Source: Candidatus Kryptoniota bacterium
GTDB taxonomy: Bacteria > Bacteroidota > Ignavibacteria > Kryptoniales > JAKASW01
DNA length: 64,000 nt
Reading direction: 5' to 3'
Assembly (NCBI GenBank): GCA_036567965.1
Contig: DATCTN010000031.1
Location: 62,001 to 126,000 of the forward strand
Below the pieces are notes generated by a model. That model searched no databases. It was not told the origin of the DNA and worked only from the letters and a program-made list of their open reading frames with translations. Positions 21,526 through 59,667 of the stretch are shown piece by piece. The translations under genes were made by a program, and so were the position numbers. Position 1 is the stretch's first letter; each line of letters begins with the position of its first letter.

Positions 21526-22374
21526 TTAATTTTCTCCGTACGTTCTCGCTGCTTCCCATCCGACTATGGCGAGTTTCCGCTCGTCTCCCCAGTGGTAGTT
21601 GCCGATCACTCCGGTCGACCTGATCACGCGATGACATGGGATCAAATATGCGACGGGATTGCTCCCGATCGCGGTGCCGACTGCCCGCGAAGCGTCCGGG
21701 TACCCGATCGATTCTGCTACCTGGGAGTACGAACTCAGCTGGCCGAACGGGATCTTCAGAAGTGCCTCCCAAACCTTCAACTGGAAGGGCGTAGCCTTCA
21801 GGTGAAGCTTTATCCCACGGATATCCGACCAATCCGACTGGAAGATTCGAAGCGCGTCGTGATGAAACGGATTCTCCTTCTGTTCCAGCCTCGCGTTCGC
21901 ATATTTTTCCCGGAGCGACCTGATAGATCGGGCTCTATTGTTGGCGAACGCGATATGACACACACCCTTGCCGGTTGAAGCGATTAGGATTTCGCCGAAC
22001 TGCGTCTCGTAGAATCCATATTGGATATCAAGATTCGCCCCCTTGTTTTTGAATTCACCAGGAGTCATCCTCTCGATATTTACGAAGAGATCGTGAAGTC
22101 GTCCGGTTCCCGACAGACCGACATCGAAGCTCGCTTCCGCCAGAGATGCGTTCAACTTCAAGAGATCCTTGGCGTGTTCCACGCTTATGTATTCGAGAAA
22201 TTTCTTCGGACTCACGCCCGCCCATTTCTTGAAAAGCCTTTGAAAATGGTAGGGGCTCAGGTGAATTTCACTCGCCACACGATCCAGGTCGGGTTGTTCC
22301 CGGAAATGACTGTATATAAATGAAATCGCTTCCGCGATTCGTTGATAGTCTGTTTTGTTAGTTGCCGTTGTCAT
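21526..22374 (-). CDS. AraC-type HTH fused to O6-methylguanine-DNA methyltransferase (Ada-like, no Ada N-terminal domain)
   Basis: A 282-residue fusion. I use ATG 22374 (MTTATNKTDYQRIAEAISF), which is preceded by CAGGAGA at the right distance; the frame extends six codons further, but that would swallow the ribosome site. Residues about 10-100 are an AraC helix-turn-helix (LSPYHFQRLFKKWAGVSPKKF). Residues about 115-275 are an MGMT domain with the active-site Cys247 in IPCHRVIRSTG and the ASRAVGTAIGSNP helix. It transfers alkyl groups from guanine O6 to itself and may activate its own transcription. The methylphosphotriester-sensing cysteine domain of Escherichia coli Ada is absent, which is common in this sub-type. 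Confidence 0.93.
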   Translation of the reverse strand: MTTATNKTDYQRIAEAISFIYSHFREQPDLDRVASEIHLSPYHFQRLFKKWAGVSPKKFLEYISVEHAKDLLKLNASLAEASFDVGLSGTGRLHDLFVNIERMTPGEFKNKGANLDIQYGFYETQFGEILIASTGKGVCHIAFANNRARSIRSLREKYANARLEQKENPFHHDALRIFQSDWSDIRGIKLHLKATPFQLKVWEALLKIPFGQLSSYSQVAESIGYPDASRAVGTAIGSNPVAYLIPCHRVIRSTGVIGNYHWGDERKLAIVGWEAARTYGEN

Positions 22375-22586
22375 TGGTTTCTCCTGACACAATTTATCGA
22401 GGAGACGAATTGAGTTAAACCCGATTCTTGCTGAAATCCGGCGAGAACAAGGACGCGCGGATAATTGGAGGCGCCGCCAACCGCAAAGGTTTTACATCAT
22501 CCTGACTCTTTATTGACAACACTCTCAAAGCACACGCTGATATTCAAGCGCAAAGTCTTGTGAGTAGGACGAGCGAGGAGAACGGG

Positions 22587-23915
22587 ATGGAACAGAAGAT
22601 CAGGTTTCTATTGATTAACCCCACTGCTCCGGAGTGGCGCGTCGGCGACGGGAAAGGTCCACGGCACTCCACAAGGTCATTCAGGTTTTCGATGCTGTCC
22701 AGTCTGTACGTGGCAGCGGCTATGCCCTCTTATGTGGAATCCAGAATCGTCGATGAAGATACCGAGCCAATCGACTTCAATACCGACGCCGATCTCATCG
22801 GAGTTTCGTTCATGACTTTCAACGCGCCAAGGGCTTACGAGATTGGCGACAGGTTTCGAGCGATTGGGAAGAAGGTAATTTTCGGAGGGTACCATCCCAC
22901 TTTCTTGCCTGAAGAAGCGATAAGGCATTCTGATGCAGTGTGTGTGGGCGAGGCGGAAGCGAACGTCCCGCGTATGATCCAGGATTTCGTCCACGGGGAG
23001 CTTAAAGGTATTTACAGAAACGGACCTGTCGACCTGAAAGGACTTCCGATTCCCGACAGGACTCTCACGCGCAAGAACTTCTATATACCGGCGGACACAG
23101 TCCAGGCAACGCGCGGGTGTCCCAACATGTGCACGTTTTGTTCGATCACTTCTTTTTTCAAACATCAGCTCCGGGTGAGACCCGTCGATGAAGTGATAGA
23201 GGAACTGCGCGGACTTGGACGCTACATCATGTTCATGGACGACAGCATCGCGGCCGACCGGGACTACGCGGGCAAACTCTTCAGCAAAATGATACCTCTT
23301 CGAAAGCGCTGGTTCAGCCAGTGTACGATCGGCATCGCAGACGACGAAGAACTCCTCCGACTTGCAAGTGAGAGCGGATGCAAAGGTCTCTTCGTCGGCC
23401 TCGAGTCTTTATCGCAGGATGGTCTAAAGAAACTCGGAAAGAATTTCAACCGGGCATCAGACTACCGGCGCTCGATATCCTTACTTCACGATGCGGGAAT
23501 CGCAGTATACACGGGAATTGTCCTCGGAAACGACTCCGATAGGCCGGACGTCTTCAGATATACTATTGAATTCCTCCTCGAGACGAATGTCGATGCGCTC
23601 CAGGCTACTATTCTGACTCCTTTTCCTGGTACACCCGTTTACGATCAGCTGAACAGGGAAGGGAGAATCACATGTACGGATTGGAGCATGTACGATTTCA
23701 ATAACGTTGTGTTCGAGCCGAAGAACATGAGCGCGGATACGCTAAAGCGGGGCCATGATTGGGTGCTGTCTCAATTTTACTCCAGGCGCGCGATCACCGC
23801 CCGGCTGTCTCGGGAATTCGCCTACTTGAACATTCCTGTCATGGCACACGGCACGATACCTCTAAATCTTGGATACAGGACACGGCTCCGGAAAGTTGGG
23901 GTACTCAATGACTGA
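22587..23915 (+). CDS. B12-binding-domain radical SAM protein
   Basis: A 442-residue protein; ATG 22587 is preferred over the upstream GTG 22560 because AGGAG (22576-22580) precedes it. The N-terminal ~130 residues form a cobalamin-binding-like Rossmann domain (LIGVSFMTFNAPRAYEIG, FGGYHPTFLPEEA, VCVGEAE), but without a clear DxHxxG cobalamin-ligand motif. The radical SAM core has CxxxCxxC at Cys178, Cys182 and Cys185 (RGCPNMCTFC), then the FMDDSI and GLESL strands. It belongs to the broad class with BchE/MiaB-like folds in which substrates are rarely known. No neighbouring biosynthetic partners are visible, so the reaction cannot be assigned. A 9-bp hairpin overlaps its stop codon. Confidence 0.88.
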   Translation: MEQKIRFLLINPTAPEWRVGDGKGPRHSTRSFRFSMLSSLYVAAAMPSYVESRIVDEDTEPIDFNTDADLIGVSFMTFNAPRAYEIGDRFRAIGKKVIFGGYHPTFLPEEAIRHSDAVCVGEAEANVPRMIQDFVHGELKGIYRNGPVDLKGLPIPDRTLTRKNFYIPADTVQATRGCPNMCTFCSITSFFKHQLRVRPVDEVIEELRGLGRYIMFMDDSIAADRDYAGKLFSKMIPLRKRWFSQCTIGIADDEELLRLASESGCKGLFVGLESLSQDGLKKLGKNFNRASDYRRSISLLHDAGIAVYTGIVLGNDSDRPDVFRYTIEFLLETNVDALQATILTPFPGTPVYDQLNREGRITCTDWSMYDFNNVVFEPKNMSADTLKRGHDWVLSQFYSRRAITARLSREFAYLNIPVMAHGTIPLNLGYRTRLRKVGVLND

Positions 23916-24056
23916 ATAATCAGCCGAAAATTATTCAGCGGCATATCGCCATATCCGACTCCCATTAGTATTTCCACAGTCCATTTAGTTGGTTGAAAAA
24001 ACCATCTAAACAGCAGAAGAGATCCGAACTAAATAAATCGTGGACTCCAGTTCCAC
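23912..24056. promoter_or_regulatory. Cluster of three hairpins upstream of the hydroxyproline-type operon
   Basis: Three stem-loops follow each other: CTGAATAAT/ATTATTCAG (23912-23938, perfect 9 bp, loop of 9, overlapping the radical SAM stop); TTTAGTTGGTT/AACCATCTAAA (23984-24010, 10 of 11 pairs, GAAAA loop); and GTGGA/TCCAC near 24040-24056. None has a strong T-run. They could be transcript ends or a structured leader for the downstream genes; no known riboswitch is recognised. Confidence 0.35.
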
Positions 24057-24213
24057 TCGAAAATTTCAAGTCCCTTCATTAGATTGATACAGGTTTCTAC
24101 GTTAAACTTTTTCCATTGTCCAACTAAGAAAACTTTTCATGATTGGAATGATGTCAGCTTACTATTGCTCGCATTTACCCCCGCCGATCCCGGGAGTGAA
24201 GGGATAAAGCAGG

Positions 24214-25143
24214 TTGGGGATTTCTCGTAATATTCTCCTTTGGGCGTCCGAGAATCCGTTTCTCGTCGATCACGTTCCCAGGTTCCGATTCGTGCGGAAG
24301 GCGCTGAGGAGATTCATGCCTGGAGAGGAACTCGATGACGCGATCGGAGCATCGAAGGAATTTCAGAAGGAAGGAATTCCTACGGTCTTTACCTATTTGG
24401 GCGAGAGTATTAAAGATCTGGGCGAGGCAGCAACGGTGAGGGATCATTATATAAGCGTTCTCGAGAGGATCTCGTCGGAAAAGCTCGAGATAGAAATCTC
24501 CGTCAAGTTGACCCAGCTCGGATTGGATTTGTCGGGCGAGACCGCTCTGGAAAACTTCAAGTTAATTGCGGAACGGGCCCGCCGGCTCGGAAATGTGGTG
24601 TGGATCGATATGGAGCGGAGCAATTACGTCGATGCGACGCTCGATCTTTACCGGAAAGCGAGAAAGGATTTCGCGAATACGGGTGTTTGTCTACAAGCAT
24701 ACCTCAGACGTACCCGGAGCGATGTTGAAAAATTACTCCAGATTTCTCCGTCGATACGTCTGGTCAAGGGCGCGTATAATGAGCCGAAGGAAATAGTGTT
24801 TCCCAGTAAGCACGATGTGGATGAGAATTATTTCGAGCTGTCTAAAATGCTTCTCCGCGGAATAAGAGAGAACGGGGCGAGAGCGGCTTTCGGAACACAC
24901 GACATACAATTGCACGAGAGGATCATCAAGTCGTCAGCGGAGTTCGGAATTCCAAACGAGAAACTTGAATTCCAGATGCTCTATGGGATCAAGACCAACG
25001 ACCAGAAGAGGCTCGCGAGAGAAGGTTATCATATACGCGTGCTCATCAGTTACGGTAAGGCGTGGTACAAATGGTACGTGCGGCGTCTCGCAGAACGGCC
25101 GGCAAACATCGGTTTCGTCCTGAGGAATCTGTTCGGGGGATGA
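24214..25143 (+). CDS. Proline dehydrogenase-family protein (possible hydroxyproline dehydrogenase)
   Basis: A 309-residue monofunctional FAD enzyme of the PRODH family. It opens with ISRNILLWASENPFL typical of bacterial PRODH and continues with SVKLTQLGLD, VWIDMERSNYVD, VCLQAYLRRT, RLVKGAYNEPKE and FGTHD, ending in a helix with two arginines (KWYVRRLAERPANI) in the position that grips the substrate carboxylate. It oxidises L-proline to P5C, passing electrons to the quinone pool. The following genes encode a HOGA-like aldolase, alanine-glyoxylate aminotransferase and P5C dehydrogenase, so the substrate may be trans-4-hydroxy-L-proline, as for human PRODH2. Sequence alone does not separate the two substrates. 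Start is TTG 24214, with GAAGGGAT upstream. Confidence 0.88.
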   Translation: MGISRNILLWASENPFLVDHVPRFRFVRKALRRFMPGEELDDAIGASKEFQKEGIPTVFTYLGESIKDLGEAATVRDHYISVLERISSEKLEIEISVKLTQLGLDLSGETALENFKLIAERARRLGNVVWIDMERSNYVDATLDLYRKARKDFANTGVCLQAYLRRTRSDVEKLLQISPSIRLVKGAYNEPKEIVFPSKHDVDENYFELSKMLLRGIRENGARAAFGTHDIQLHERIIKSSAEFGIPNEKLEFQMLYGIKTNDQKRLAREGYHIRVLISYGKAWYKWYVRRLAERPANIGFVLRNLFGG

Positions 25144-25223
25144 AGTGCAGATGAGAAACGAGAAATGAGAAATGAAAAGTGAAAAGTGGACAGGCAAATA
25201 GTATTAAGGTGAGGGTGAGCTAG

Positions 25224-26105
25224 ATGATTAATGGAATATTTCCGCCGATCGCGACTCCGTTTGAACGTGGAGAAGTGGCATTCGACAGATTAGCTCAAAA
25301 TATGAATCGGTGGAACACGACGGGTCTGGCCGGATACGTCGTGATGGGCTCCAATGGCGAGAGCGCGTTCCTCACGCGTGAGGAGAAATTGAAGCTTGTC
25401 GATGCGGTGAAACAAAATCTTCCTTCCGGAAAATTGCTTATCGCGGGAACCGGATCGGACTCTATAAGGGAGACAATTTCGCTGTCTAATGATGCTGCCG
25501 GTCTCGGAGCCGATTATGCGCTCGTGCTGACTCCGTCATTCTATAAAGGAGAGATGAACGGTGCGGCGTTTGTGAGATATTTCTCGGAAGTTGCGGACTC
25601 GATAAAGATACCTCTGATTATTTACAATGTTCCGAAATTTACGGGAGTTAGCATTGAGGCAGATGCGGTGTCGAAACTTTCGCGGCATGGAAATATTGCC
25701 GGACTGAAGAACAGCTCCGAGAATACCGCTCACACGGCCGAGTTGGTCGCGTGTGCGCCCGGGGACTTTTCGGTTCTTGTGGGAACGGCTTCGGTTCTGT
25801 ATCCCGGCCTCATCGCAGGTGCGACAGGCGGTATCCTCGCGCTCGCGAATATTGTGCCCGCGGAGTGTGTCGAGCTGAAGAGTCTTTTTGACTCGGGCAA
25901 ACACTCGGCGGCCGCAGCGCTCCAAGCGAAACTCATCCCGGTCAACAGGGCGGTAACATCTAAGTACGGTGTTCCGGGACTTAAGGCGGCGATGGACATG
26001 CTCGGCTACTTCGGCGGCGATCCCCGCAGCCCGCTCGCCCCGCTCGGCGAGAAGGAACGTGCAGAACTAAAGCTGATTCTAAAAGGCGCAGGATTACTGG
26101 ATTGA
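25224..26105 (+). CDS. 4-hydroxy-2-oxoglutarate aldolase-like (HOGA1-type) member of the DapA/DHDPS family
   Basis: A 293-residue class I (Schiff-base) aldolase. Lys162 in IAGLKNSS is the catalytic lysine, and Tyr134 in IIYNVPKFTG is the proton-relay tyrosine. Where dihydrodipicolinate synthases have GTTGE, this protein has GSNGE (Ser43-Asn44). Two residues after the lysine it has Ser164. Both features are those of animal HOGA1 (Ser77, Asn78, Tyr168, Lys196, Ser198 as I recall), with a constant offset of 34. The C-terminal stretch VTSKYGVPGLKAAMDMLGYF also reads like HOGA1. Predicted reaction: 4-hydroxy-2-oxoglutarate to glyoxylate and pyruvate. Eighty bases after the PRODH gene; GGTGAGGGTGAG precedes the ATG. 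A generic DapA-family lyase remains the alternative. Confidence 0.85.
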   Translation: MINGIFPPIATPFERGEVAFDRLAQNMNRWNTTGLAGYVVMGSNGESAFLTREEKLKLVDAVKQNLPSGKLLIAGTGSDSIRETISLSNDAAGLGADYALVLTPSFYKGEMNGAAFVRYFSEVADSIKIPLIIYNVPKFTGVSIEADAVSKLSRHGNIAGLKNSSENTAHTAELVACAPGDFSVLVGTASVLYPGLIAGATGGILALANIVPAECVELKSLFDSGKHSAAAALQAKLIPVNRAVTSKYGVPGLKAAMDMLGYFGGDPRSPLAPLGEKERAELKLILKGAGLLD

Positions 26106-26286
26106 TGCGGCGGTTGAACCGGGATCGTACGGAACATTTTCCGGAATTTCGAATTCCAAAACCTCTACCCATCTCGAGTCTGGAGACTGTGGACTGCGGG
26201 CAAGCGTTTTGTATTTCGAGTTTATGATTTGTCTAGAATTTAGAAATTGGACCTTCGTATTTTGACACTGAGGAGAAGCGATAATC

Positions 26287-27399
26287 ATGAAAACCTTTCA
26301 TCCTCCCGATAGAATCTTAATGGGGCCGGGACCGTCGAACGTCCACCCCAGAGTTCTCGAAGCTATGTCCCGTCCCACGATCGGCCATCTCGATCCGGCA
26401 TTCATCGGGTTGATGGATGAAATCAAATCCCTTTTGAGAGACACGTTCATTACAAAGAACGAGGTGACATTCCCCGTGTCCGGACCGGGATCCGTCGGGA
26501 TGGAAGCGTGTGTGGTCAACATGGTCGAACCCGGAATGAAGGTCGCAGTTTGCGTGAACGGTGCGTTCGGGGGACGACTCAGAGAGATGATCGAGCGCAG
26601 CGGGGGATTACCCGTCGTAGTCGATGCTCCCTGGGGTGAACCGGTCGATCCCAATAAACTGGAAGACGCTCTCCGCGCTGACAGGGACGTAAAGGTGGTC
26701 GCGTTCGTTCACGCAGAGACTTCGACCGGCGCCCGGTCGGACATTCAAAAACTCTCGGAGATCGCGCACGAACACGGCTGCCTCACGATCGCCGACACAG
26801 TGACGTCGCTCGGTGGAATTCCCGTGAAAGTCGACGAATGGAAGCTCGACGCTGTTTATTCCGGGAGCCAGAAATGTCTTTCGTGTCCTCCCGGACTTTC
26901 GCCTGTGACGTTCAGTGAGCGGGCGGTGAACGCGATAAAGAATCGAAAAACGAAAGTGAGGAGCTGGTTCATGGACGTAAGCCTCGTCCTTAGTTACTGG
27001 AGCGGGGCGAAGCGGACGTACCATCATACGGCACCAATCAATGCGCTCTACGGTCTCCATGAAGCGCTTCTTATCGTTCACGAAGAGGGACTTGAAAATG
27101 CCTGGGCAAGACACAGGAAAAATTCCGATTTGTTCCGGGCGGGACTTGAACAGATCGCATTGAAGACATTCGTGAACGGTGAAGCCAGCTTGCCCGAGCT
27201 CGTTACCGTCTGCGTCCCCGATGGAGTCGACGAAGCAGCGGTCAGGGAACGCCTACTGAACCGCCATAACATTGAGATCGGTGCCGGACTCGGCCAGCTT
27301 GCCGGAAAGATCTGGAGGATTGGACTGATGGGATACACTTCGAATGAGAAGAACGTTAAATTAAGTCTGGAAGCTCTGAAAGAGGAGATTGGAAAGTAA
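26287..27399 (+). CDS. Alanine-glyoxylate / serine-pyruvate aminotransferase (class V)
   Basis: A 370-residue class V PLP aminotransferase. The N-terminal MGPGPSNVHPRVLEAM, the PLP lysine Lys196 in YSGSQKCLSCPPG, Asp170 in IADTVTSLGG (pairs with the pyridine N), and TYHHTAPINALYGLHEAL followed by EEGLENAWARHR match animal AGT closely. So does the C-terminal GAGLGQLAGKIWRIGLMGY, whose Arg would bind the substrate carboxylate. Predicted reaction: glyoxylate plus alanine (or serine) to glycine plus pyruvate (or hydroxypyruvate). Placed directly after a glyoxylate-producing aldolase, it would remove that product. GAGGAGAAG precedes the ATG. Length is typical. Confidence 0.92.
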   Translation: MKTFHPPDRILMGPGPSNVHPRVLEAMSRPTIGHLDPAFIGLMDEIKSLLRDTFITKNEVTFPVSGPGSVGMEACVVNMVEPGMKVAVCVNGAFGGRLREMIERSGGLPVVVDAPWGEPVDPNKLEDALRADRDVKVVAFVHAETSTGARSDIQKLSEIAHEHGCLTIADTVTSLGGIPVKVDEWKLDAVYSGSQKCLSCPPGLSPVTFSERAVNAIKNRKTKVRSWFMDVSLVLSYWSGAKRTYHHTAPINALYGLHEALLIVHEEGLENAWARHRKNSDLFRAGLEQIALKTFVNGEASLPELVTVCVPDGVDEAAVRERLLNRHNIEIGAGLGQLAGKIWRIGLMGYTSNEKNVKLSLEALKEEIGK

Positions 27400-27404
27400 T
27401 TCAA

Positions 27405-27492
27405 AAGTCAGATGTCAAAATTCAAAACTGAATTCGAAAACCCCCAATGCAGGCCGTCTAATTTTTGACTTTTGTGTTTTCATATCTGACTT
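27405..27492. repeat. Imperfect inverted repeat between aminotransferase and P5C dehydrogenase genes
   Basis: AAGTCAGAT (27405-27413) is the exact reverse complement of ATCTGACTT (27484-27492). Inner segments GTCAAAA (27414-27420) and TTTTGAC (27463-27469) are also complementary. The spacer is AT-rich. It may be a remnant of a small palindromic element or a transcript-processing structure; no T-run follows. Confidence 0.4.
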
Positions 27493-27537
27493 CGATCTGA
27501 AGTTCTTACCCATAATCTAGCAAGGAGACGAATCACA

Positions 27538-29172
27538 TTGTCAAACGCAAAATTTGAAATACCGTTGCCGCCGAACGAACCCGTGAAAAATTATCTTCCG
27601 GGTTCACAGGAGCGAGCGTCTCTGAAAGCAAAACTCGAGGAGATGCAAAATAAGCAGATCGAGATACCGCTGATCATAGGAGGAGAAGAGATAAAGACAG
27701 GCAAAATCGGAAAGTGCGTACTTCCGCACGACCATAAAACTGTAATTGCTACCTACCACCAGGCCGGTGAAAAGGAAGTAAACATGGCGATCGATGCGGC
27801 CCTTGCGGCGCGGAAAGCATGGGCTGGCCTCGATTGGGAAGAGAGACTGTCCATTTTCATGAAAGCTGCAGCTCTGCTGTCGGGTCCATGGCGCGATACA
27901 CTGAATGCCGCGACGATGCTGGGACAGAGCAAAAACGTTTTCCAGGCCGAGATCGATTCGGCGGCGGAGCTGACGGATTTCTTCAGGTTCAATGCATACT
28001 ACGCGATGCAGATCTTTGAGCAGCAGCCGCCGCATTCGCCGGTGGATGTCAGGAACAAAATGGAATACCGCCCGCTCGAGGGATTTGTCTTTGCCGTTTC
28101 TCCTTTTAACTTCACGTCGATAGCGGGTAACCTCCCGACCGCACCCGCGATGGTTGGCAATGTCGTTCTCGCGAAACCCGCCTCCAGCGCGGTCTATTCG
28201 GCGTACTATATAACGAAACTCCTCCAGGAAGCGGGCGTGCCGCCGGGAGTCATCAATTTTGTGCCAGGATCGGGTGGATCTGTCGGAAAACCTGCGATGC
28301 TGTCTCCGTATCTGGCCGGAATTCATTTTACCGGTAGCACTTCGGTGTTCCAGGATATGTGGAAGACGGTCGGCGAAAATATTTCGAAATACAAATGGTA
28401 CCCGAGAATTGTTGGCGAGACCGGCGGCAAGGACTTTATTTTCGCCCACAAGAGTGCCGACATTCAGGAGCTCGGAGTCGGGATAATCCGCGGCGCGTTC
28501 GAATACCAGGGGCAGAAATGTTCGGCCGCGTCGAGGTCATACATCCCTCGATCGCTCTGGGCAAATCTAAAAGATTATATGATCAGCGAATTGAAGACGG
28601 TGAAGATGGGTGACGTACGTGATTTCTCGAACTTCATGAACGCGGTCATCGATAAAGGGGCGTTCTCGACAATCACCGGCTATATCGATTTCGCGAAGAA
28701 ATCCTCCGAGGCTGAAATAGTATGCGGCGGGAATTACGACGACTCTAAGGGATTTTTCATCGAGCCGACGATTATCCTTGCCAGGAACCCGCACTTCAAA
28801 ACTATGGAAGAGGAAATCTTTGGACCCGTCATGACGGTTTGTGTCTATGATGATGACAAGTACGAAGAGACGCTTCATCTTTGCGACGAGACGTCTCCAT
28901 ATGCTTTGACGGGAGCGATATTTGCGCATGACAGGTATGCGGTTGCTACCGCGAACCGGATACTGGTGAATGCCTCCGGAAACTTCTATATAAATGACAA
29001 GCCGACGGGCGCTGTCGTAGGACAACAGCCGTTCGGAGGCGCGAGAGCAAGCGGGACGAACGACAAGGCAGGAAGTTTCCTGAACATGGTCCGCTGGCTT
29101 TCGCCGCGGAGCACGAAAGAGAATCTTGTTCCCCCGAAGAATTATCGCTATCCGTTCATGGGTGAAAAATAG
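27538..29172 (+). CDS. L-glutamate gamma-semialdehyde (P5C) dehydrogenase, animal ALDH4A1-like
   Basis: A 544-residue NAD-dependent aldehyde dehydrogenase starting at TTG 27538 after AAGGAGACG. Catalytic Cys328 lies in YQGQKCSAASR and the general-base Glu294 in VGETGGKDF; the NAD-binding GSTSVFQ and the late QQPFGGARASGTNDKAG loop are present. The N-terminal region (LDWEERLSIFMKAAALLSGP, then NAATMLGQSKNVFQAEID) is the form found in monofunctional ALDH4A1 enzymes rather than in bifunctional PutA. In animals this enzyme oxidises both glutamate semialdehyde and 4-hydroxyglutamate semialdehyde, which fits the neighbouring HOGA-like and AGT genes. Cytoplasmic. 138 bases after the aminotransferase gene. 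Confidence 0.93.
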   Translation: MSNAKFEIPLPPNEPVKNYLPGSQERASLKAKLEEMQNKQIEIPLIIGGEEIKTGKIGKCVLPHDHKTVIATYHQAGEKEVNMAIDAALAARKAWAGLDWEERLSIFMKAAALLSGPWRDTLNAATMLGQSKNVFQAEIDSAAELTDFFRFNAYYAMQIFEQQPPHSPVDVRNKMEYRPLEGFVFAVSPFNFTSIAGNLPTAPAMVGNVVLAKPASSAVYSAYYITKLLQEAGVPPGVINFVPGSGGSVGKPAMLSPYLAGIHFTGSTSVFQDMWKTVGENISKYKWYPRIVGETGGKDFIFAHKSADIQELGVGIIRGAFEYQGQKCSAASRSYIPRSLWANLKDYMISELKTVKMGDVRDFSNFMNAVIDKGAFSTITGYIDFAKKSSEAEIVCGGNYDDSKGFFIEPTIILARNPHFKTMEEEIFGPVMTVCVYDDDKYEETLHLCDETSPYALTGAIFAHDRYAVATANRILVNASGNFYINDKPTGAVVGQQPFGGARASGTNDKAGSFLNMVRWLSPRSTKENLVPPKNYRYPFMGEK

Positions 29173-29354
29173 GGGGAATTTCTTCAGTTAGACAGACAAG
29201 GGCCTCCGCTCTGGCGTTTTAGTTCAAGCCGAGATAACTTACGCTGAACTGTGGCTTGCGATCCTTCATCCTCTTGCATCGGAGTGCGGGTTGGGGATCA
29301 AGCCTATCGATGGACTCGAAACGCATTAACAAAAACAAGACAGGAGGTACCGTT

Positions 29355-29954
29355 ATGCGTAGATCCATGATTCTACTCGCCGTCATTTTCCTTGTGGGAG
29401 CCTCGAGCGTTCAATCCCAGACGCTGCGGGTTGGCGCGCAGGGACAGAAAGCGCTCCTCTTCAACTTTGTCGGCCTGAATGCACTTAACCTCGGAGCCTA
29501 CTCGACTTACGTGAACCAATCTGCCGGCATCGGGGCGAAGTACTTTCTTTCTGATGGAGTCGCAGTCCGCGGATTGCTCCTCTTCGGAATCAACAATCAC
29601 ACTACGAGCACGACACCAGAAGTTTCCGACAATAAATTTTCATTTGGAATCGGTGGAGCGCTGGAGTACCACCTTCCGATTTCATCAAGCGTGAGTCCGT
29701 ATGTCGGAGGCGGATTGCAGTTTATGACTAGTACAGAGACAACCAACCCCGCCTCCTTTAAGACGACACAGAGCATGTTTGGTGTCGGAGCGCTGATGGG
29801 AGTGGAGTACTTTTTTAACCAGAGTATCAGCCTCGGTGCAGAGTACCAATTCGGTCTGACAACCGGAAGCGCAACAGCGACTGGTGCGGCGGATCAAAGC
29901 CAGCTCACTGTCGGCTTCCAGACGGCGGGTCTCACGATGGCGGTCTATTTCTGA
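29355..29954 (+). CDS. Outer-membrane beta-barrel protein
   Basis: A 199-residue exported protein. ATG 29355 follows AGGAGG at 29342-29347; the upstream in-frame part is not coding-like. The signal peptide is about residues 1-22 (VGASSVQSQ). The mature part is a set of amphipathic beta-strands (GIGAKYFLSDGVAVRGLLLFG, YVGGGLQFM, GVGALMGVEYFF, SLGAEYQFGL) and ends in Val-Tyr-Phe, the terminal aromatic residue that BAM substrates use. This is an OmpW/OmpA-barrel-like small porin or structural protein of unknown function. It sits 182 bases after the P5C dehydrogenase gene; whether it belongs to that operon is unclear. Confidence 0.78.
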   Translation: MRRSMILLAVIFLVGASSVQSQTLRVGAQGQKALLFNFVGLNALNLGAYSTYVNQSAGIGAKYFLSDGVAVRGLLLFGINNHTTSTTPEVSDNKFSFGIGGALEYHLPISSSVSPYVGGGLQFMTSTETTNPASFKTTQSMFGVGALMGVEYFFNQSISLGAEYQFGLTTGSATATGAADQSQLTVGFQTAGLTMAVYF

Positions 29955-33250: not shown

Positions 33251-33544
33251 AAGCTTGGTGCGTGCCTTGCGAAACGTCCTATGTAGCGATAAAGGGTTAG
33301 GTGGTTTTGACTGACTTGCGCGAGGATACCTTCGCAAGGTAACCGCGCTGCCGGAATCTTGCCGCTTCTTGGGTTGCATCCGCTCAAGAGAGATCCGGCG
33401 TACATCGATTCGACTTTTCTCGTTGAAACTCAAGCTTCCGAAGAGTAGTTTGATTCTCGGTTGCGTCCAAGCTGATGTGACCTGATAATATTTTTCGGAG
33501 CGGGCGCATTGCTCTTGTGCCCGAACTTCATCGGAGGAATTAAC

Positions 33545-35752
33545 ATGAGGAAAATTTCCTTTGTACTTATACTTCTGTCCGCTTCGGCTGCGGTCTCAAT
33601 TCTGTCAGGGGCTATCAACATTGATTCCGTTTCACATCAACAAACTGGGATATCCGTGAAACCTCAGACTACACTAACGATTGACGATACCTCAGCCGCG
33701 GTATTTGCGAGCAGCAATCCATTCGCCGGACCGAGTCCACTTCAATACCAGGCGCCGCCTTTTGACCGGGTCCACGACTCCGATTACAAGCCTGCGATCG
33801 AGGAAGGGATGCGGAGGCAGCTTTCAGAGATCGACAAGATTGCCACCGATCCGTCACCCGCGACAGTTGACAATACGATCGTCGCCATGGAGAAATCAGG
33901 CGATCTTCTCACGCGTGTTACGAAAGTATTCTTCGCGATGACTCAGGCGAATACCGACGACGCACTGCAGAGCATCGAGTCCGAGGAAGCCCCGAAACTC
34001 GCCGCTCATTCAGATGCAATATATCTCAATGACAATTTGTTCCGGCGCGTAAAATTGATATACGACAGTAGGGAGAAGCTCGGTCTCGACGCTGTCCAAA
34101 AATTCCTGGTAAGGCGCTACTACCTGGACTTTGTGCGGTCGGGCGCGCTTCTTTCGGAACCCGATAAACAAAAACTCCGCGCGTTGAACCAGGAAGAATC
34201 GAAACTCGTCACCGATTTCCAGAATAAGCTTCTGGCCGGGACGAAAGCCGGCGGCCTCGTCATCGATGATAAGAAGGAGCTCGATGGTATGAGCGATGCC
34301 GAAATTGCTGCAGCGGCGCAAGCTGCGCACGACCGGGGTCTCGACGGAAAGTGGGTTGTCCCTCTTCAAAATACCACGCAGCAGCCTGCCCAGGTTTCGC
34401 TCAGCGACCGGAATGTGCGCGAGAGATTGTTCGAATCGTCGACGATGCGCACGGAGCGCGGCGATAGCAATGACACGCGCACGATTATAACCCGCCTCAC
34501 AGAAATTCGTGCCGAACGGGCAAAACTTTTAGGTTATCCGAACTTCGCCGCATATTCGCTCGAAGATCAGATGGCGAAGACTCCCGCTGCGGCCATCAGG
34601 CTTCTTACAGACCTCGTGCCCGCTTCGATGGCGAAAGCACGAAACGAAGCTGCGAAGATGCAAGCGCTGGTAGATCGCGAGAGTGGCGGGTTCAAACTCC
34701 AGCCCTGGGACTGGCAGTATTATGCCGAGAAAGTCAGAAAGGCCGACTACGACCTGGATGAGTCACAGATCAAGCCGTACTTCGAGCTGAACCGTGTCCT
34801 TCAGGACGGAGTTTTCTATGCCGCGAACAAATTGTACGGACTGACGTTCAGGGAGAGGAAGGACATTCCTGTATATCAGCCTGACGTCAAAGTGTTCGAA
34901 GTGTTCGACGCCAACGGGAAATCGATAGCGCTCTGGTACTGCGACTACTTCAAGCGCGATAACAAGAGCGGAGGCGCGTGGGAAGATACGTTCGTTGACG
35001 GGTCAGGACTTCTTCACGCGAAACCTGTGGTCTTCAACGTGGCAAACTTCACGAAACCCGCCCAGGGTCAGCCGGCGCTTCTCACTTTCGATGATGTTAC
35101 CACGATGTTCCACGAATTCGGACACGCGCTTCATGCAATGCTCACAAATGTCGAGTACCCGCGACTAGCCGGTACCAACGTTCCGCGGGATTTTGTAGAA
35201 TTTCCGTCGCAGTTCAACGAGCACTGGGCGCTTTACCCGGCGGTCCTCGCACACTACGCGAAGCAATACAAAACGGGAGAGCCGATGCCGAAAGAACTTG
35301 TCGGTAAGATCAGGAAGGCGCGAACGTTTAACCAGGGCTTCGCCACCACCGAATATCTTGAAGCGTCTCTACTCGATATGGCGTGGCACACAATTCCACA
35401 GGGGGCGCAGGTTGCAAACGTAGACTCGTTTGAGACTCATGCCCTTGAACAGTACGGCGTTTACATGCCACTCGTGCCACCGCGGTACCGCTCAACATAT
35501 TTCGCCCATATTTGGAGCAACGGATATGCAGCAGGTTATTACTCGTACCTGTGGAGCGAAGTACTCGACGATGACGCCTTCGCATGGTTCACTGAACATG
35601 GAGGCCTGACCCGGGCGAACGGCGAACGTTTCAGAAAAATGATTTTGTCGCGCGGAGGATCTGAAGACGTCGGCGCGCTCTATCGAGCTTTTCGCGGGCG
35701 CGACCCGAATGTAAAAGCGCTCCTCGAGGATCGGGGATTGACTGAAAAATGA
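33545..35752 (+). CDS. M3-family metallopeptidase (dipeptidyl carboxypeptidase/oligopeptidase-like), exported
   Basis: A 735-residue zinc peptidase. ATG 33545 follows GGAGGAATTAAC; upstream in-frame codons overlap the ribosome site. An N-terminal signal peptide or anchor covers about residues 1-22. The long helical N-terminal half leads to the catalytic HEFGH at residues 523-527 (FHEFGHALHAMLTNVEYP), with the third zinc ligand in the following EFPSQFNEHW helix, as in M3 Dcp/OpdA enzymes. The ending QYGVYMPLVPPRYRSTYF and WSNGYAAGYYSY is characteristic of the Dcp group, which removes C-terminal dipeptides. Being exported, it would work on peptides in the periplasm, possibly supplying amino acids including proline or hydroxyproline. 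Confidence 0.9.
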   Translation: MRKISFVLILLSASAAVSILSGAINIDSVSHQQTGISVKPQTTLTIDDTSAAVFASSNPFAGPSPLQYQAPPFDRVHDSDYKPAIEEGMRRQLSEIDKIATDPSPATVDNTIVAMEKSGDLLTRVTKVFFAMTQANTDDALQSIESEEAPKLAAHSDAIYLNDNLFRRVKLIYDSREKLGLDAVQKFLVRRYYLDFVRSGALLSEPDKQKLRALNQEESKLVTDFQNKLLAGTKAGGLVIDDKKELDGMSDAEIAAAAQAAHDRGLDGKWVVPLQNTTQQPAQVSLSDRNVRERLFESSTMRTERGDSNDTRTIITRLTEIRAERAKLLGYPNFAAYSLEDQMAKTPAAAIRLLTDLVPASMAKARNEAAKMQALVDRESGGFKLQPWDWQYYAEKVRKADYDLDESQIKPYFELNRVLQDGVFYAANKLYGLTFRERKDIPVYQPDVKVFEVFDANGKSIALWYCDYFKRDNKSGGAWEDTFVDGSGLLHAKPVVFNVANFTKPAQGQPALLTFDDVTTMFHEFGHALHAMLTNVEYPRLAGTNVPRDFVEFPSQFNEHWALYPAVLAHYAKQYKTGEPMPKELVGKIRKARTFNQGFATTEYLEASLLDMAWHTIPQGAQVANVDSFETHALEQYGVYMPLVPPRYRSTYFAHIWSNGYAAGYYSYLWSEVLDDDAFAWFTEHGGLTRANGERFRKMILSRGGSEDVGALYRAFRGRDPNVKALLEDRGLTEK

Positions 35753-37493: not shown

Positions 37494-37991
37494 CTTGCCC
37501 GAATGCTTGCGGCCTGTGTCCGCAACGGACTAATATTCCGATGTGAAATTCCCGAAGAACTGGCTCAGTGAACATATCGTGAGTACGGATAAAAACCATG
37601 GTCCGTTCCTGAACTCGAAGGGAGTTTCCTAACCGGTTTATGATCCGCCGGATCTCTCCTCCTTCGTAGTCTCCGGATCGGTCTTCGGTCGTTTGAACTT
37701 CACATCGCCCCGCATCGTGTGACGATCGCTTATCAGCGCGGGGAGCCTCTCTGATGAAATATCCTTCGTGTGAACAAAGACTGCCAAAGGAGATTTACTT
37801 GACTCTGCCGATATACCGCGGGATCGTTGTCTCAAGCTGAAGCTGTCGGCGGCATCCCGATCTAATTGAAATTTGAACCTGTCCGGCTTCAATGTTGTTA
37901 TCGATATGAGCGGCATCAAATTGTTTTGCCGATCAACCCGTCGAATGTGTGATGCTTCGAGAACAAATCAGTAAAGTTGGCACTGAGAGTT
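37494..37991. other. ~500-base gap with one doubtful minus-strand frame
   Basis: Between the CapA gene and the aminotransferase gene. The only reading frame with coding-like codon choice is the minus-strand one at 37638-37919, listed separately. No RNA gene or repeat is evident. Confidence 0.4.
37638..37919 (-). CDS. Possible small protein, unrecognised
   Basis: A 93-codon frame starting TTG-ATG-CCG. Its codon choice (frequent GAT, AAG, CCG, TCG, GCG) resembles that of real genes in the window, and it fills an otherwise empty gap. Against it: no ribosome site is visible, the start is a TTG, and the product is basic and polar with no family likeness (for example AVFVHTKDISSERLPALIS). It could also be the remnant of a longer gene. 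Confidence 0.3.
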   Translation of the reverse strand: MMPLISITTLKPDRFKFQLDRDAADSFSLRQRSRGISAESSKSPLAVFVHTKDISSERLPALISDRHTMRGDVKFKRPKTDPETTKEERSGGS

Positions 37992-39344
37992 ATGGAATCC
38001 TTCACCGTAGAATCGAAAACAAAGAACCAAAATATTCACGATGAGCTAAAGCGATTGGACGATTCCCGATTGAGGGAACGACACACCAGGCTTAGCGCGG
38101 CTTACAAAGAATTCGCGTCTCAGAATCTCGCACTCGACCTGTCTCGCGGCAAGCCCGGCGCTGAGCAGCTCGACCTCTCGTCGGAAATGATGGATTGTCT
38201 TTCAAGGAACGACTACAAATCCCGTGACGGGATCGATTGCAGAAACTACGGTGGAGTCGACGGGATTCCAGAAGCCAAGGAATTATTTGCCGGTATTCTT
38301 GAGGCGCGCCCGAATGAAATAATGATCGGCGGAAATTCCAGCCTCGCGATGATGCACGACCTGGTCGCGAGAGGTATGCTACGAGGGCTCCCGGGAAGCG
38401 AGTTACCATGGCAAAAACTTCCCGCCGTGAAATTTATTTGTCCCAGCCCGGGCTACGACAGGCACTACTCGATATGCGATTACTTCGGAATAGAAATGAT
38501 CACCGTCGACTACCATGAAGACGGTCCCGACATGTCGCATGTTGAAAACCTGGTCGCTTCCGATTCGAGCATAAAAGGTATCTGGTGCGTACCCAAGTAC
38601 AGCAATCCGACCGGTATCACATATTCGGACGAAGTTGTCGAGCGACTCGCGGCAATGCCCGCGAAGGCTTCCGATTTCCGGATTTTCTGGGACAACGCTT
38701 ACGCTGTGCACCACCTTTCCGAAACTCCCGACAGACTGATGAACATTCTCGAGGCGTGCAGGAGATCGGGAAATCCCGACAGGGCATTCGTGTTCAGCTC
38801 GACTTCGAAGATTACATTTGCCGGAGGCGGCGTAGCGATGATGGCAAGCAGCGAAACCAACATCAACTGGCTGAAGAAACAGACGATCATACAAACGATC
38901 GGTCCGGACAAGCTTAACCAGCTGCGTCACGTTCGCTTTTTTAAAGACATGGCCGGAATCGAAGCGCACATGAAGCGTCACGCGGCTATCGTGAAACCGA
39001 AATTCGATCTCGTCCTCGACATCCTGGATTCACATCTTGGCGGAAAAGGAATTGCATCATGGAGCAGGCCGCGCGGCGGTTACTTTATCAGTCTTAACAC
39101 GCAGCCCGGATTCGCCAGGAGGGTTGTCGGTATGGCTGCTGCGGCAGGAGTAACGCTCACCGAAGCCGGAGCCACGTTCCCTCACGGCAAAGATCCAGCG
39201 GACCGGAACATCAGGATCGCCGCTACATACCCGCCTCTCTCCGAGCTCAAGCCGGCGATGATCGTACTTGCGCTCTGCATCGAGCTCACGGCGATTGAAC
39301 ACGAATTGTCGGCGCGCGGATATAAACATCCTGTCGAGGCTTAG
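37992..39344 (+). CDS. Class I aminotransferase of the Ic aspartate aminotransferase subgroup
   Basis: A 450-residue PLP aminotransferase. ATG 37992 is taken as the start; a TTG 15 bases upstream is possible. The family signature NLALDLSRGKPGAEQLDLS near the N-terminus, YGGVDGIPEAKELFA, GGNSSLAMMHDL, CPSPGYDRHYSICDYFG, VPKYSNPTG and FRIFWDNAYAVHHL lead to the PLP lysine (Lys273 in FSSTSKITFAGGG). The end carries IRIAATYPPL with the carboxylate-binding Arg. This subgroup has been described as aspartate aminotransferases of type Ic. If so it could transaminate 4-hydroxyglutamate with oxaloacetate, the one step missing from the gene group at 24.2-29.2 kb. Confidence 0.85.
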   Translation: MESFTVESKTKNQNIHDELKRLDDSRLRERHTRLSAAYKEFASQNLALDLSRGKPGAEQLDLSSEMMDCLSRNDYKSRDGIDCRNYGGVDGIPEAKELFAGILEARPNEIMIGGNSSLAMMHDLVARGMLRGLPGSELPWQKLPAVKFICPSPGYDRHYSICDYFGIEMITVDYHEDGPDMSHVENLVASDSSIKGIWCVPKYSNPTGITYSDEVVERLAAMPAKASDFRIFWDNAYAVHHLSETPDRLMNILEACRRSGNPDRAFVFSSTSKITFAGGGVAMMASSETNINWLKKQTIIQTIGPDKLNQLRHVRFFKDMAGIEAHMKRHAAIVKPKFDLVLDILDSHLGGKGIASWSRPRGGYFISLNTQPGFARRVVGMAAAAGVTLTEAGATFPHGKDPADRNIRIAATYPPLSELKPAMIVLALCIELTAIEHELSARGYKHPVEA

Positions 39345-47316: not shown

Positions 47317-49560
47317 ATGAAGAATATTTCGGATTGCCTATTTATCGCCCTCTTTATTTTGTCCACAGCTGGAGGCGCGAGAGCTCAGGACGCACCCGGT
47401 CGGAAAACGAATGATAAGCCCGCATATCTCGACACAAGCCTGACATTTGAAGCGCGTGCGGCGGACCTCGTTTCGCAGATGACGCTGGATGAAAAAATAT
47501 CTCAAATGCAGAACGGCGCGCCGGCTATACCGCGGCTCGGAGTCGACAAGTACAACTGGTGGAGCGAATGCCTACACGGGGTCGCGCGGAACGGAATTGC
47601 CACGGTGTTCCCGCAAGCAATTGGAATGGCGGCGACCTGGGATGACGCTCTCATCCATTCCGAAGCGGATGTCATATCAACTGAAGCGCGTGCCAAGCAT
47701 AATGACGATGTCCTTAAAGGAGAACGGAATATTTACCAGGGACTGACGTTCTGGTCTCCGAACGTAAACATATTCAGGGATCCGAGATGGGGAAGAGGAC
47801 AGGAAACCTACGGCGAAGATCCTTACCTGACGTCGAGAACTGGTGTCGCGTTCGTGAAGGGGCTCCAGGGAGACGATCCGAAATATTTCAAAGTCATCTC
47901 GACACCAAAGCATTATGCGGTGCACAGCGGTCCGGAGCCGCTAAGACATGAATTCGATGCAGTCGTCAGCAACCGAGATCTTTTCGAGACCTACCTTCCC
48001 GCATTCCGCGCATGCGTTACCGAGGGCGGCGCGTTTTCTGTAATGGGTGCTTACAGTGCTTTGGACGGAACTCCATGCTGCGCAAGCAAGTTCCTCCTGA
48101 CGAAGGTGCTCCGTGACAAATGGGGATTCAAGGGCTACGTCGTTTCAGACTGCGGTGCGATTGAAAATATTTACGGCGGCCACAAATATGCCCCTGACCT
48201 TGCATCTGCATCCGCACTCGCGGTAAAAGCGGGATGCGATCTAACCTGCGGAGGAGAATTCGTTACGTTGAAAGACGCGGCAGCAAGAGGGCTCGTCTCG
48301 GAAAAGGAAATCGACCGAAGTGTAGAACGATTGATGCTCGCTCGGTTTAAACTCGGGATGTTCGATCCGCCCGACGCGGTCCCATATAATAAGATTACAA
48401 TTTCCGACAACGACACCGAGCCGCACCGCCAGCTCGCGAGGAAAGTTGCGGATGAGAGCATCGTACTCCTGAAGAATGCCGGCAACTTTCTCCCGCTCAA
48501 GAAGAATTTGAAATCCGTCGCGGTGATTGGAGCTTATGCCGATGATATCGCTATTCTCCTCGGCAATTACGAAGGGACTCCCTCAAGACCTGTGACGCTT
48601 CTCCGGGGAATCAAGAACAAGATCGGATCGACTTCGGACGTGGAGTTCGCGGCAGGCTATCGTGCACTTGAGGATACCGTGAGTGTTGGACCGACAAACG
48701 AGGAGCTGATCAAGAGCGCAGTCGATGTTTCCCGGAAATCTGATGTCGCGATTATCGTCGCCGGTATATCGCCATACCTCGAGGGCGAAGAGATGAACAT
48801 AGATATTCCCGGCTTCAAAGGAGGAGACCGGACGAGTTTGAATATTCCTCCAGTCGAAGAAGATTTGATAAAAGCGGTGTACGCCACGGGGAAACCGGTA
48901 GTCCTTGTTCTTGTCGGTGGAAGCGCGCTCGCAGTAAATTGGGAAGATAAGAATCTTCCTGCGATCGTGGACGCGTGGTACCCGGGTGAAGAAGGTGGAA
49001 ATGCCGTTGCCGACGTCCTTTTCGGCGACTATAATCCAGCGGGAAGACTTCCCATCACCTTCTATAAGTCAGTGAAGGACATCCCCCCGTTCGAAGACTA
49101 CAATATGTCTCCGGGTCGTGATACACTGACCGAGCCGGGAAGAACTTACAGGTACTATACTGGAACGCCTCTCTATCCGTTCGGATTTGGTCTGAGTTAT
49201 ACGAAATTCGATTATTCGAATTTCAGGTTGAGCAGCAATAGCGCGTCGCCTTCCGACACACTCGCGGTTTCACTCACGCTTCAAAACACTGGTCAGTATG
49301 ATGGGGATGAAGTCGTGGAATTGTACGTACGCAGCCTGACTCATTCGAAACCCCAACCGATCAAGTCGCTTGAAGGATTCAAACGAGTTGAGCTGGCGAA
49401 AGGCCAGTCAAAGGTAGTCAACCTCAATCTTCCAGTGAGCTCGCTCGAATACTTTGATGATCAAAAAGAAGATTATGTGGTTGAACCGGGTAAATATGAA
49501 ATTCAGGTCGGGTCGTCGTCGAGCGACATTAGACTGAGAGCCGTCCTGAATGTACAGTAA
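47317..49560 (+). CDS. Exported GH3 beta-xylosidase/beta-glucosidase
   Basis: A 747-residue glycoside hydrolase family 3 enzyme with a signal peptide (about 1-23, STAGGARAQ). The N-terminal barrel carries NWWSECLHGVARNG, PNVNIFRDPRWGRGQETYGEDP and KHYAVHSGPEP. The nucleophile is Asp278 in VVSDCGAIENIY. Next come the alpha/beta sandwich (LLGNYEGTPS, SPYLEGEEM) and a C-terminal fibronectin-III-like domain (YPFGFGLSYTKFDY to the end). The WWSECLHGVA and GPEPLRHEFDA wording is that of bacterial and plant exo-beta-1,4-xylosidases. It would release xylose from oligomers in the periplasm. It opens the xylan region; GGAGAG precedes the ATG. Confidence 0.93.
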   Translation: MKNISDCLFIALFILSTAGGARAQDAPGRKTNDKPAYLDTSLTFEARAADLVSQMTLDEKISQMQNGAPAIPRLGVDKYNWWSECLHGVARNGIATVFPQAIGMAATWDDALIHSEADVISTEARAKHNDDVLKGERNIYQGLTFWSPNVNIFRDPRWGRGQETYGEDPYLTSRTGVAFVKGLQGDDPKYFKVISTPKHYAVHSGPEPLRHEFDAVVSNRDLFETYLPAFRACVTEGGAFSVMGAYSALDGTPCCASKFLLTKVLRDKWGFKGYVVSDCGAIENIYGGHKYAPDLASASALAVKAGCDLTCGGEFVTLKDAAARGLVSEKEIDRSVERLMLARFKLGMFDPPDAVPYNKITISDNDTEPHRQLARKVADESIVLLKNAGNFLPLKKNLKSVAVIGAYADDIAILLGNYEGTPSRPVTLLRGIKNKIGSTSDVEFAAGYRALEDTVSVGPTNEELIKSAVDVSRKSDVAIIVAGISPYLEGEEMNIDIPGFKGGDRTSLNIPPVEEDLIKAVYATGKPVVLVLVGGSALAVNWEDKNLPAIVDAWYPGEEGGNAVADVLFGDYNPAGRLPITFYKSVKDIPPFEDYNMSPGRDTLTEPGRTYRYYTGTPLYPFGFGLSYTKFDYSNFRLSSNSASPSDTLAVSLTLQNTGQYDGDEVVELYVRSLTHSKPQPIKSLEGFKRVELAKGQSKVVNLNLPVSSLEYFDDQKEDYVVEPGKYEIQVGSSSSDIRLRAVLNVQ

Positions 49561-49650
49561 GGGAAATTTGTATCTTGAGTTCAATCTGCGATTTCCGATT
49601 GCGGAAATGGAGATCGGGAGAATTGATCTCAGAGTTCGGAGGAGGAAAAT

Positions 49651-50406
49651 TTGCTTGAATTGATGATGCTAAGACGACACAAGAACTCCTCGTGTTTTCT
49701 TATCTGTTTCTGCCTGATTTCAACTTGCTCAGCGCAGACTCTGTCGGGACAGATTGACATGGGTGTTAGGAAAAGCCCGGCTGAAGTTCGTCTCGATCAG
49801 AATGCGGAGGAATCGATCGAACCGGGCTCAGGATTTCACATCGGATTTTTCGGCGGGGTGTCGCTGCCGATGGGGAAGTTTGCGGAAGTGAGCGACAAGG
49901 CTTCAGGTTTTTCGATTACCGGATGGGCGGTAGGAGTCGACGGTCTGGTTGAGCTCGACCCGCACGTGGATTGGATTTCGAGCCTCAATCTTTCGGTGAA
50001 CAGGACCGATATGGGTTCGCTGGTCACTGCGCCTAATATTCATGTGTCGTCGACGTCATGGAGCAATGTCTGGCTTCTTACCGGCCTCAGGGTGAACGGT
50101 CCCGTAGTACCTGGCTCACCACTAAAATTGTTCGCACAGGGACAAGTAGGATTTTTATTTGGGACAAGTCCTGCGGTGAACCTGGATTGGGGATCCGGAT
50201 ATTCCGACCAGGGATCGTCCAGTTCTCAGGCTCTTGGATATTCGATAGGAGCCGGACTCGCCATTGAAAATTTTTCCGTTTGTGTGCGGTATGTAGGCGG
50301 AAACCCTTCGTATAATTTTACCGCGACAGGCTCAGGCGGAAAGGTAAGCGGGGCATTTGAGCAGCAGACGTCCTGCATCGAGATCGCTGCCGGAGTGGGT
50401 TTCTAG
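49651..50406 (+). CDS. Outer-membrane beta-barrel protein
   Basis: A 251-residue exported protein starting at TTG 49651, four bases after GGAGGAAAAT. The signal peptide ends near residue 29 (LISTCSAQ). It consists of amphipathic strands (FHIGFFGGVSLPMGKFAEV, WLLTGLRVNGPV, LFAQGQVGFLFG, YSIGAGLAIENFSV), closing with EIAAGVGF and a terminal Phe suited to BAM recognition. No family assigned. A decayed copy of its last ~45 codons lies directly downstream, so it was once part of a tandem pair. It lies between the GH3 gene and xylA and may serve oligosaccharide passage, but nothing in the sequence proves that. Confidence 0.75.
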   Translation: MLELMMLRRHKNSSCFLICFCLISTCSAQTLSGQIDMGVRKSPAEVRLDQNAEESIEPGSGFHIGFFGGVSLPMGKFAEVSDKASGFSITGWAVGVDGLVELDPHVDWISSLNLSVNRTDMGSLVTAPNIHVSSTSWSNVWLLTGLRVNGPVVPGSPLKLFAQGQVGFLFGTSPAVNLDWGSGYSDQGSSSSQALGYSIGAGLAIENFSVCVRYVGGNPSYNFTATGSGGKVSGAFEQQTSCIEIAAGVGF

Positions 50407-50429
50407 TTTTTCACAGCCGAGAGAATTTC

Positions 50430-50567
50430 CTTTGAGATGATGTCGAGAAGCGCCTGGGCGGAAAGCCGACATATCAAATTACAACCACCGATCCAGTCTC
50501 AGCTGTCGCTAGCTCACACGAGCAGTAGACGGCTTCCCTCCAGATCACTGCGGGAGTAAGTTTCTAG
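50430..50567 (+). pseudogene. Decayed C-terminal fragment of a paralogue of the upstream barrel protein
   Basis: Reading codons from 50451 gives RLGGKPTYQITTTDPVS, then EQ, an in-frame TAG at 50526, and TASLQITAGVSF before a TAG at 50565. This aligns with the end of the upstream gene: RYVGGNPSYNFTATGSG, then EQQTSCIEIAAGVGF and stop. The spacing between GG.P.Y, EQ and AGV.F is the same. There is no start and the 5' part is missing, so it is a remnant of a tandem duplicate. Confidence 0.65.
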
Positions 50568-52750: not shown

Positions 52751-52797
52751 TAAAATCAGACAGGTGAATTTGCTTCTTCCTTGTTTTAAGGTTATTC

Positions 52798-53892: not shown

Positions 53893-53897
53893 AGCCA

Positions 53898-57008: not shown

Positions 57009-57015
57009 GAATGCC

Positions 57016-59550: not shown

Positions 59551-59667
59551 AATGCCTGCGCATCTTGAAAGATTGACAGTGCGAAAAGGGGATCGAGATT
59601 AGCAGGTGAGGGAGCCAGGATTTGCTCTTAATGTTACAGAAAAATCAAGTTGATCTTTGAGGTGAAA

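Follow-up and report, generated by a model that had tools for sequence, protein, structure and literature searches.

The gene at positions 25224-26105 very likely encodes an aldolase of the HOGA1 type, which would cleave 4-hydroxy-2-oxoglutarate (HOG) within a hydroxyproline-catabolic operon that matches the mammalian route. Gene content, homology, residues and cluster conservation were obtained from the analysis, and from these we infer every substrate assignment as well as the identity of the transaminase. In the window (the whole stretch of 64,000 nucleotides analysed, from a Candidatus Kryptoniota genome), the aldolase gene is the second of four co-directional genes, PRODH-HOGA-AGT-P5CDH, with gaps of 80, 181 and 138 bases. 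These genes, together with one that is not operon-linked, are as follows:

24214-25143, + strand: PRODH-family flavoenzyme, predicted hydroxyproline dehydrogenase, 309 aa as listed (PF01619, 111.6 bits; best solved relative T. thermophilus PRODH 2ekg, 1.7e-63)
25224-26105, + strand: DHDPS-family class I aldolase, predicted HOGA (HOGA1 match, AlphaFold model, active-site alignment, score below the dapA cut-off)
26287-27399, + strand: class V aminotransferase, predicted alanine:glyoxylate aminotransferase, AGT (PF00266; 1vjo)
27538-29172, + strand: P5C/L-glutamate-gamma-semialdehyde dehydrogenase of the ALDH4 type, P5CDH (TIGR01236, 784.6 bits, cut-off 613.6)
37977-39344, + strand: aspartate aminotransferase (AAT) type Ic, not operon-linked (NF053594, 639.7 bits, cut-off 435)

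The aldolase ORF is intact, starts with ATG and codes for 293 aa. In a search against solved structures its best matches were two entries for human HOGA1 (3s5n, E = 1.5e-68; 3s5o, 1.6e-68), and with the next-ranked solved relative, the M. jannaschii DHDPS, at 1.7e-45, the match to HOGA1 is beyond chance. The two proteins are 41% identical over 284 residues, whereas identity is 35%, 32% and 31% with three solved DHDPS and falls to 28% with the DapA of the same genome. An AlphaFold model of the protein (mean pLDDT 94.6), used in a fold search of the PDB, retrieved HOGA1 first (3s5o; 9.1e-31, TM 0.97, rmsd 1.3), with the best DHDPS trailing by some seven orders of magnitude. In addition to this predicted fold, the aldolase and HOGA1 have in common two residues, inserted after the TPxxY loop, that DHDPS lacks.

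The initial annotation had read a HOGA1 active site from the letters, and alignment to the HOGA1 chain bore this out. The GSNGE motif at residues 42-46 corresponds to HOGA1 76-80, and Ser43, Asn44, Tyr134, Lys162 and Ser164 fall on HOGA1 Ser77, Asn78, Tyr168, Lys196 and Ser198 at the constant offset of 34 that had been claimed. The proposed C-terminal likeness was also recovered, with VTSKYGVPGLKAAMDMLGYFGG aligning with a 22-residue stretch of HOGA1. The roles of the catalytic and substrate residues of HOGA1 have been established by mutation (PMC3188589), and all of them are kept: the Schiff-base Lys162 and the general acid/base Tyr134 are invariant across the clade, the HOG-specific serines and asparagine are present as Ser43, Asn44 and Ser164, and Gly187 corresponds to HOGA1 Gly222 after one indel. 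The same residues in a characterised DHDPS had been named as grounds for abandoning the HOGA1 reading; every DapA/DHDPS that we aligned (the three solved DHDPS and the genome's own DapA) instead has GTTGE and a K-x-A motif, in all four cases K-E-A. Of the broader comparison that had been proposed, DapA/DHDPS were aligned residue by residue, and NanA and KDG aldolase entered as family models only.

One substitution was absent from the initial annotation. Phe106 replaces HOGA1 Tyr140, and 34 of 48 relatives likewise have Phe at this position. Human HOGA1 has a kcat/KM for HOG of about 5e5 M-1 s-1 (PMC3188589). The Y140F variant of HOGA1 is wild-type-like, with a kcat/KM 1.22x that of the wild type, whereas Y107F in DHDPS lowers kcat about 12-fold (PMC3188589). 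Phe106 therefore argues for HOGA over DHDPS, since a HOGA tolerates Phe at the Tyr107 equivalent, where an efficient DHDPS would not be expected to have it. Both the aldolase (YNVPKFT) and HOGA1 (YSVPANT) likewise lack the Arg of the DHDPS sequence YNVPxRT.

The cluster of PRODH, HOGA, AGT and P5CDH holds the counterparts of mammalian HYPDH, HOGA1, AGXT and ALDH4A1. Gene order and spacing suggest co-transcription of all four; a promoter/terminator scan of 23800-29500 gave counts near chance. The best solved relative of the 26287-27399 product is the alanine-glyoxylate aminotransferase 1vjo (4.2e-119), followed by pucG and other AGTs, with human AGT entries at about 5e-75, so that its nearest characterised relatives are AGTs and an AGT function is predicted. 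The 27538-29172 product matches a solved P5CDH (4idm, 9.2e-178) and the mitochondrial P5CDH (5e-166). No other true P5CDH was found in the genome, where the remaining ALDHs are at most 28% identical to it, and it must therefore also serve proline. No dedicated 4-hydroxyglutamate transaminase was found in the operon; the type Ic AAT at 37977-39344 is a candidate for the transamination of 4-hydroxyglutamate to HOG, the step taken by GOT2 in mammals. A search of plasmid DNA did not recover the whole operon and gave only partial matches, which fell in its P5CDH portion.

The PRODH encoded beside the aldolase differs from ordinary PRODHs in its predicted pocket. We aligned 47 PRODHs of the cluster clade (duplicate loci included) with 23 of the Tyr type, namely 21 unlinked paralogs from the class and the two solved enzymes of T. 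thermophilus and D. radiodurans. Leu277 and Trp287 (numbering of the window's PRODH) occur in 47/47 of the former, and Tyr stands at both positions in 23/23 of the latter, while the catalytic Lys98 and the carboxylate-binding Arg290 and Arg291 are kept in both types. The two positions align with PutA Tyr540 and Tyr552, which surround the bound proline (PMC10651016), and Tyr540 is reported, in work cited in PMC3718742, to set the preference for proline over hydroxyproline. With the equivalent of this hydroxyproline-excluding tyrosine lost to Leu277, the linked PRODH is predicted to be a HYPDH-like hydroxyproline dehydrogenase.

In the class sample, Leu-type PRODH was present in 18/23 aldolase-positive genomes versus 2/74 aldolase-negative ones (Fisher p 3e-13, a value that ignores shared descent). 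All Leu-type PRODHs fall in one clade, apart from the Tyr type, and because of this the changes from Tyr to Leu and from Tyr to Trp may be a single evolutionary event that has since persisted; counting Leu- and Tyr-type PRODHs as independent events was rejected for the same reason. Human PRODH2, the mammalian HYPDH, presumably has Ser rather than Leu at the position of Tyr540, and if so the bacterial Leu solution is separate from the mammalian one. Leu-type PRODH also occurs without a close HOGA in two genomes of the class, one at L168 8636-9586 (G228), where no aldolase lies beside it, and one at L155 (G240).

Close homologues of the aldolase are found in records titled Bacteroidota, Ignavibacteriales and Melioribacter, and most of the relatives are metagenome-assembled. 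At E below 1e-55 the aldolase was detected in 23/395 genomes of the phylum, all 23 of them in the window's class. We read 19 class loci (L128-L146), some of them cut by contig ends, and found beside or near the aldolase a Leu-type PRODH in 16, AGT in 13, P5CDH in 11, trans-4-hydroxyproline dehydratase (HypD) in 7 and a peptidase of the Xaa-Pro type in 13; POT-family peptide transporters are present in several aldolase clusters. The genes of locus L030 run in the order HypD activase, HypD, Xaa-Pro aminopeptidase, PRODH, HOGA, AGT, P5CDH, the HypD scoring 1325 bits on NF043068 and matching 6vxc at E=0. Judged by its gene content, the cluster is a peptide-hydroxyproline catabolic neighbourhood. 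HypD of the window's genome, which scores 1275 bits against a cut-off of 1100, is encoded together with its activase on another contig (L153 6537-9715, G000:C6), so that the strongest hydroxyproline marker adjoins the aldolase in relatives only. Co-occurrence of HypD with the aldolase by genome is weak (12/23 versus 5/18 chosen genomes), and for this reason only HypD adjacency was used as evidence.

Automatic tools would label 25224-26105 as a lysine-biosynthesis enzyme, and a dihydrodipicolinate synthase (DapA) of that pathway that has drifted at a few residues would share the Pfam family PF00701 (178 bits) and have dapA as its best NCBIfam model, as is the case here. On the NCBI dapA model, however, the protein reaches 179.1 bits, below the cut-off of 206.15, whereas the other DHDPS-family homologue in the genome (G000:C19) scores 363.8 bits, carries GTTGE and adjoins dapB; searches of the genome found no further members of the family. 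Phe also stands in place of the DHDPS proton-relay Tyr107, and the Arg of YNVPxRT is gone. Finally, in a tree of 53 sequences, from which NanA, KDG aldolase and Pyr4H2C deaminase were left out, a branch with 100/100 support separates DapA from HOGA1 and the bacterial GSNGE proteins, this one included. We regard the DapA identity as scarcely credible and rejected it, given the low dapA score, the residues, this tree and the dapA gene found beside dapB elsewhere in the genome. The preference of the initial annotation for HOGA1 over the lysine enzyme is thus supported by the residues, the dapA score, the separate dapA locus and the operon context. Within the GSNGE clade HOGA1 nests among bacterial proteins, paired with a Chloroflexota protein (L026 8001-8876; 51% identity, support 100/97) to which it is closer than to the operon-encoded bacterial aldolase of the window; this pairing hints that eukaryotic HOGA1 came from bacteria.

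Some relatives encoded beside sugar-acid genes (L027) share the GSNGE...K-x-S pattern, which therefore marks a HOGA-like clade rather than a substrate. We rejected the motif alone as proof of function, because L027 and L036 share the residues in other contexts, and the substrate assignment accordingly comes from gene context. An aldolase forming pyruvate from some other 4-hydroxy-2-oxoacid, such as a sugar-acid derivative, with the PRODH/P5CDH linkage serving proline breakdown, would fit the clade members that neighbour genes for an IlvD/Edd-type dehydratase and UxaA-like proteins (L027) or for AGT and glycolate oxidase (L022, L034), as well as the dual duty of the sole P5CDH found. We nevertheless consider this unlikely, since the class clusters hold HypD, Xaa-Pro peptidases, a POT peptide transporter and AGT, and since the linked PRODH is altered at the very tyrosine that excludes hydroxyproline and a normal PRODH lies elsewhere. 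The DHDPS fold in a hydroxyproline context would also suit Pyr4H2C deaminase, an enzyme of the classical bacterial route. Five relatives (L135, L136, L137, L141 and L143) indeed have a gene of the proline racemase/hydroxyproline epimerase family near the aldolase. Three such epimerase-like genes, when tested, scored best on a trans-3-hydroxy-L-proline dehydratase model, below its cut-off, and a search for hydroxyproline epimerase (PF05544), present in some relatives, gave no match in the window's genome. Moreover, PRODH and P5CDH, encoded by the linked genes, do not yield Pyr4H2C, and a DHDPS-family ORF of S. meliloti pSymB near two epimerase-family ORFs, which we take to be the characterised Pyr4H2C deaminase, is only 25% identical and has GSMGD and K-E-F instead of GSNGE and K-x-S. 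The deaminase was rejected on motif and context, and we judge it very improbable.

For the HOG aldolase that we favour, the following route can be proposed from the gene complement. The Leu-type PRODH would oxidise trans-4-hydroxy-L-proline to 1-pyrroline-3-hydroxy-5-carboxylate, which would open spontaneously to 4-hydroxyglutamate semialdehyde, and P5CDH would convert the latter to 4-hydroxyglutamate. HOG would then arise by transamination, perhaps through the type Ic AAT or the operon AGT. In the aldolase, Lys162 would form a Schiff base with HOG, Tyr134 and Ser43 would act as a proton relay, and Asn44 and Ser164 would hold the distal carboxylate and 4-hydroxyl of HOG, which would be cleaved to pyruvate and glyoxylate; AGT would finally convert the reactive glyoxylate to glycine. 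Perhaps the operon AGT uses 4-hydroxyglutamate as the amino donor for glyoxylate, so that hydroxyproline would give glycine and pyruvate with no outside amino group, although we would not bet on this variant. We see an even chance that two routes for collagen-type hydroxyproline run in parallel within one cluster or genome, one anaerobic, through HypD to P5C, and the other a respiratory, mammal-like route through HYPDH, P5CDH, HOGA and AGT, with a PRODH that became specialised, by Leu and Trp, apart from PRODH2.

A route from hydroxyproline to glyoxylate is known from animals, in which its defects cause primary hyperoxaluria. Compared with the mammalian mitochondrial pathway (PRODH2/HYPDH, ALDH4A1, GOT2, HOGA1 and AGXT), the bacterial operon brings together homologues for 4/5 steps, and its P5CDH, like ALDH4A1, is common to proline breakdown. 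It differs in that the genes lie in one operon, in lacking a dedicated 4-hydroxyglutamate transaminase gene there, and in having as its dehydrogenase a small PRODH of the bacterial type, with Leu and Trp for the two tyrosines. The classical bacterial route, which proceeds by HypE, D-hydroxyproline dehydrogenase, Pyr4H2C deaminase and KGSA dehydrogenase, likewise applies a DHDPS-fold enzyme to a hydroxyproline derivative (PMC6608401) but ends at alpha-ketoglutarate (PMC4364671). In the anaerobic route the glycyl-radical enzyme HypD dehydrates hydroxyproline to P5C (PMC7077986); this route needs no aldolase and appears to coexist here with the oxidative one, HypD and its activase lying in the aldolase cluster of several relatives.

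Each enzyme family involved is already known. In the open-access literature searched (most subscription journals were outside its scope), we found no description of a bacterial operon of this type, of the modified PRODH or of coexistence with HypD. Since the bacterial routes that we found there end at alpha-ketoglutarate or P5C, an animal-type operon, if the assignment is true, would be a third bacterial strategy. It would also correct a likely 'dapA' misannotation across the class, give models from bacteria for two enzymes relevant to hyperoxaluria, HYPDH and HOGA, and explain a possible use of collagen- or plant-derived hydroxyproline peptides by these bacteria.

Other members of the clade have different neighbours. 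In sulfate-reducer-type records (L022, L034 and L024) a HOGA-like gene occurs with GlcD/GlcE-like and GlcF-like genes and without PRODH, a gene content suggesting glyoxylate/glycolate metabolism; AGT is found in the L022 and L034 clusters but not in the stretch of L024. In Desulfosporosinus lacus (L027 3226-10029) the HOGA-like gene lies beside the IlvD/Edd-type dehydratase, UxaA-like subunits and a tripartite transporter, and its product, which has the same active-site residues, probably acts on another substrate.

Several further genes were seen in the window. Upstream of the operon, 22560-23915 encodes a B12-binding radical SAM protein that passes no NCBIfam equivalog cut-off. The Ada-like product of 21526-22392 combines an AraC-type HTH with a methyltransferase domain but does not have the N-terminal part of E. 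coli Ada. A large ORF at 33509-35752 contains a HEFGHALH zinc-peptidase motif (M3/Dcp-like by eye) and is possibly an oligopeptidase. An apparent xylan/xylose utilisation cluster, again recognised by eye, extends over 47317-61155 and includes glycoside hydrolases, a xylose isomerase-like protein, a sugar kinase-like protein and an MFS-type transporter.
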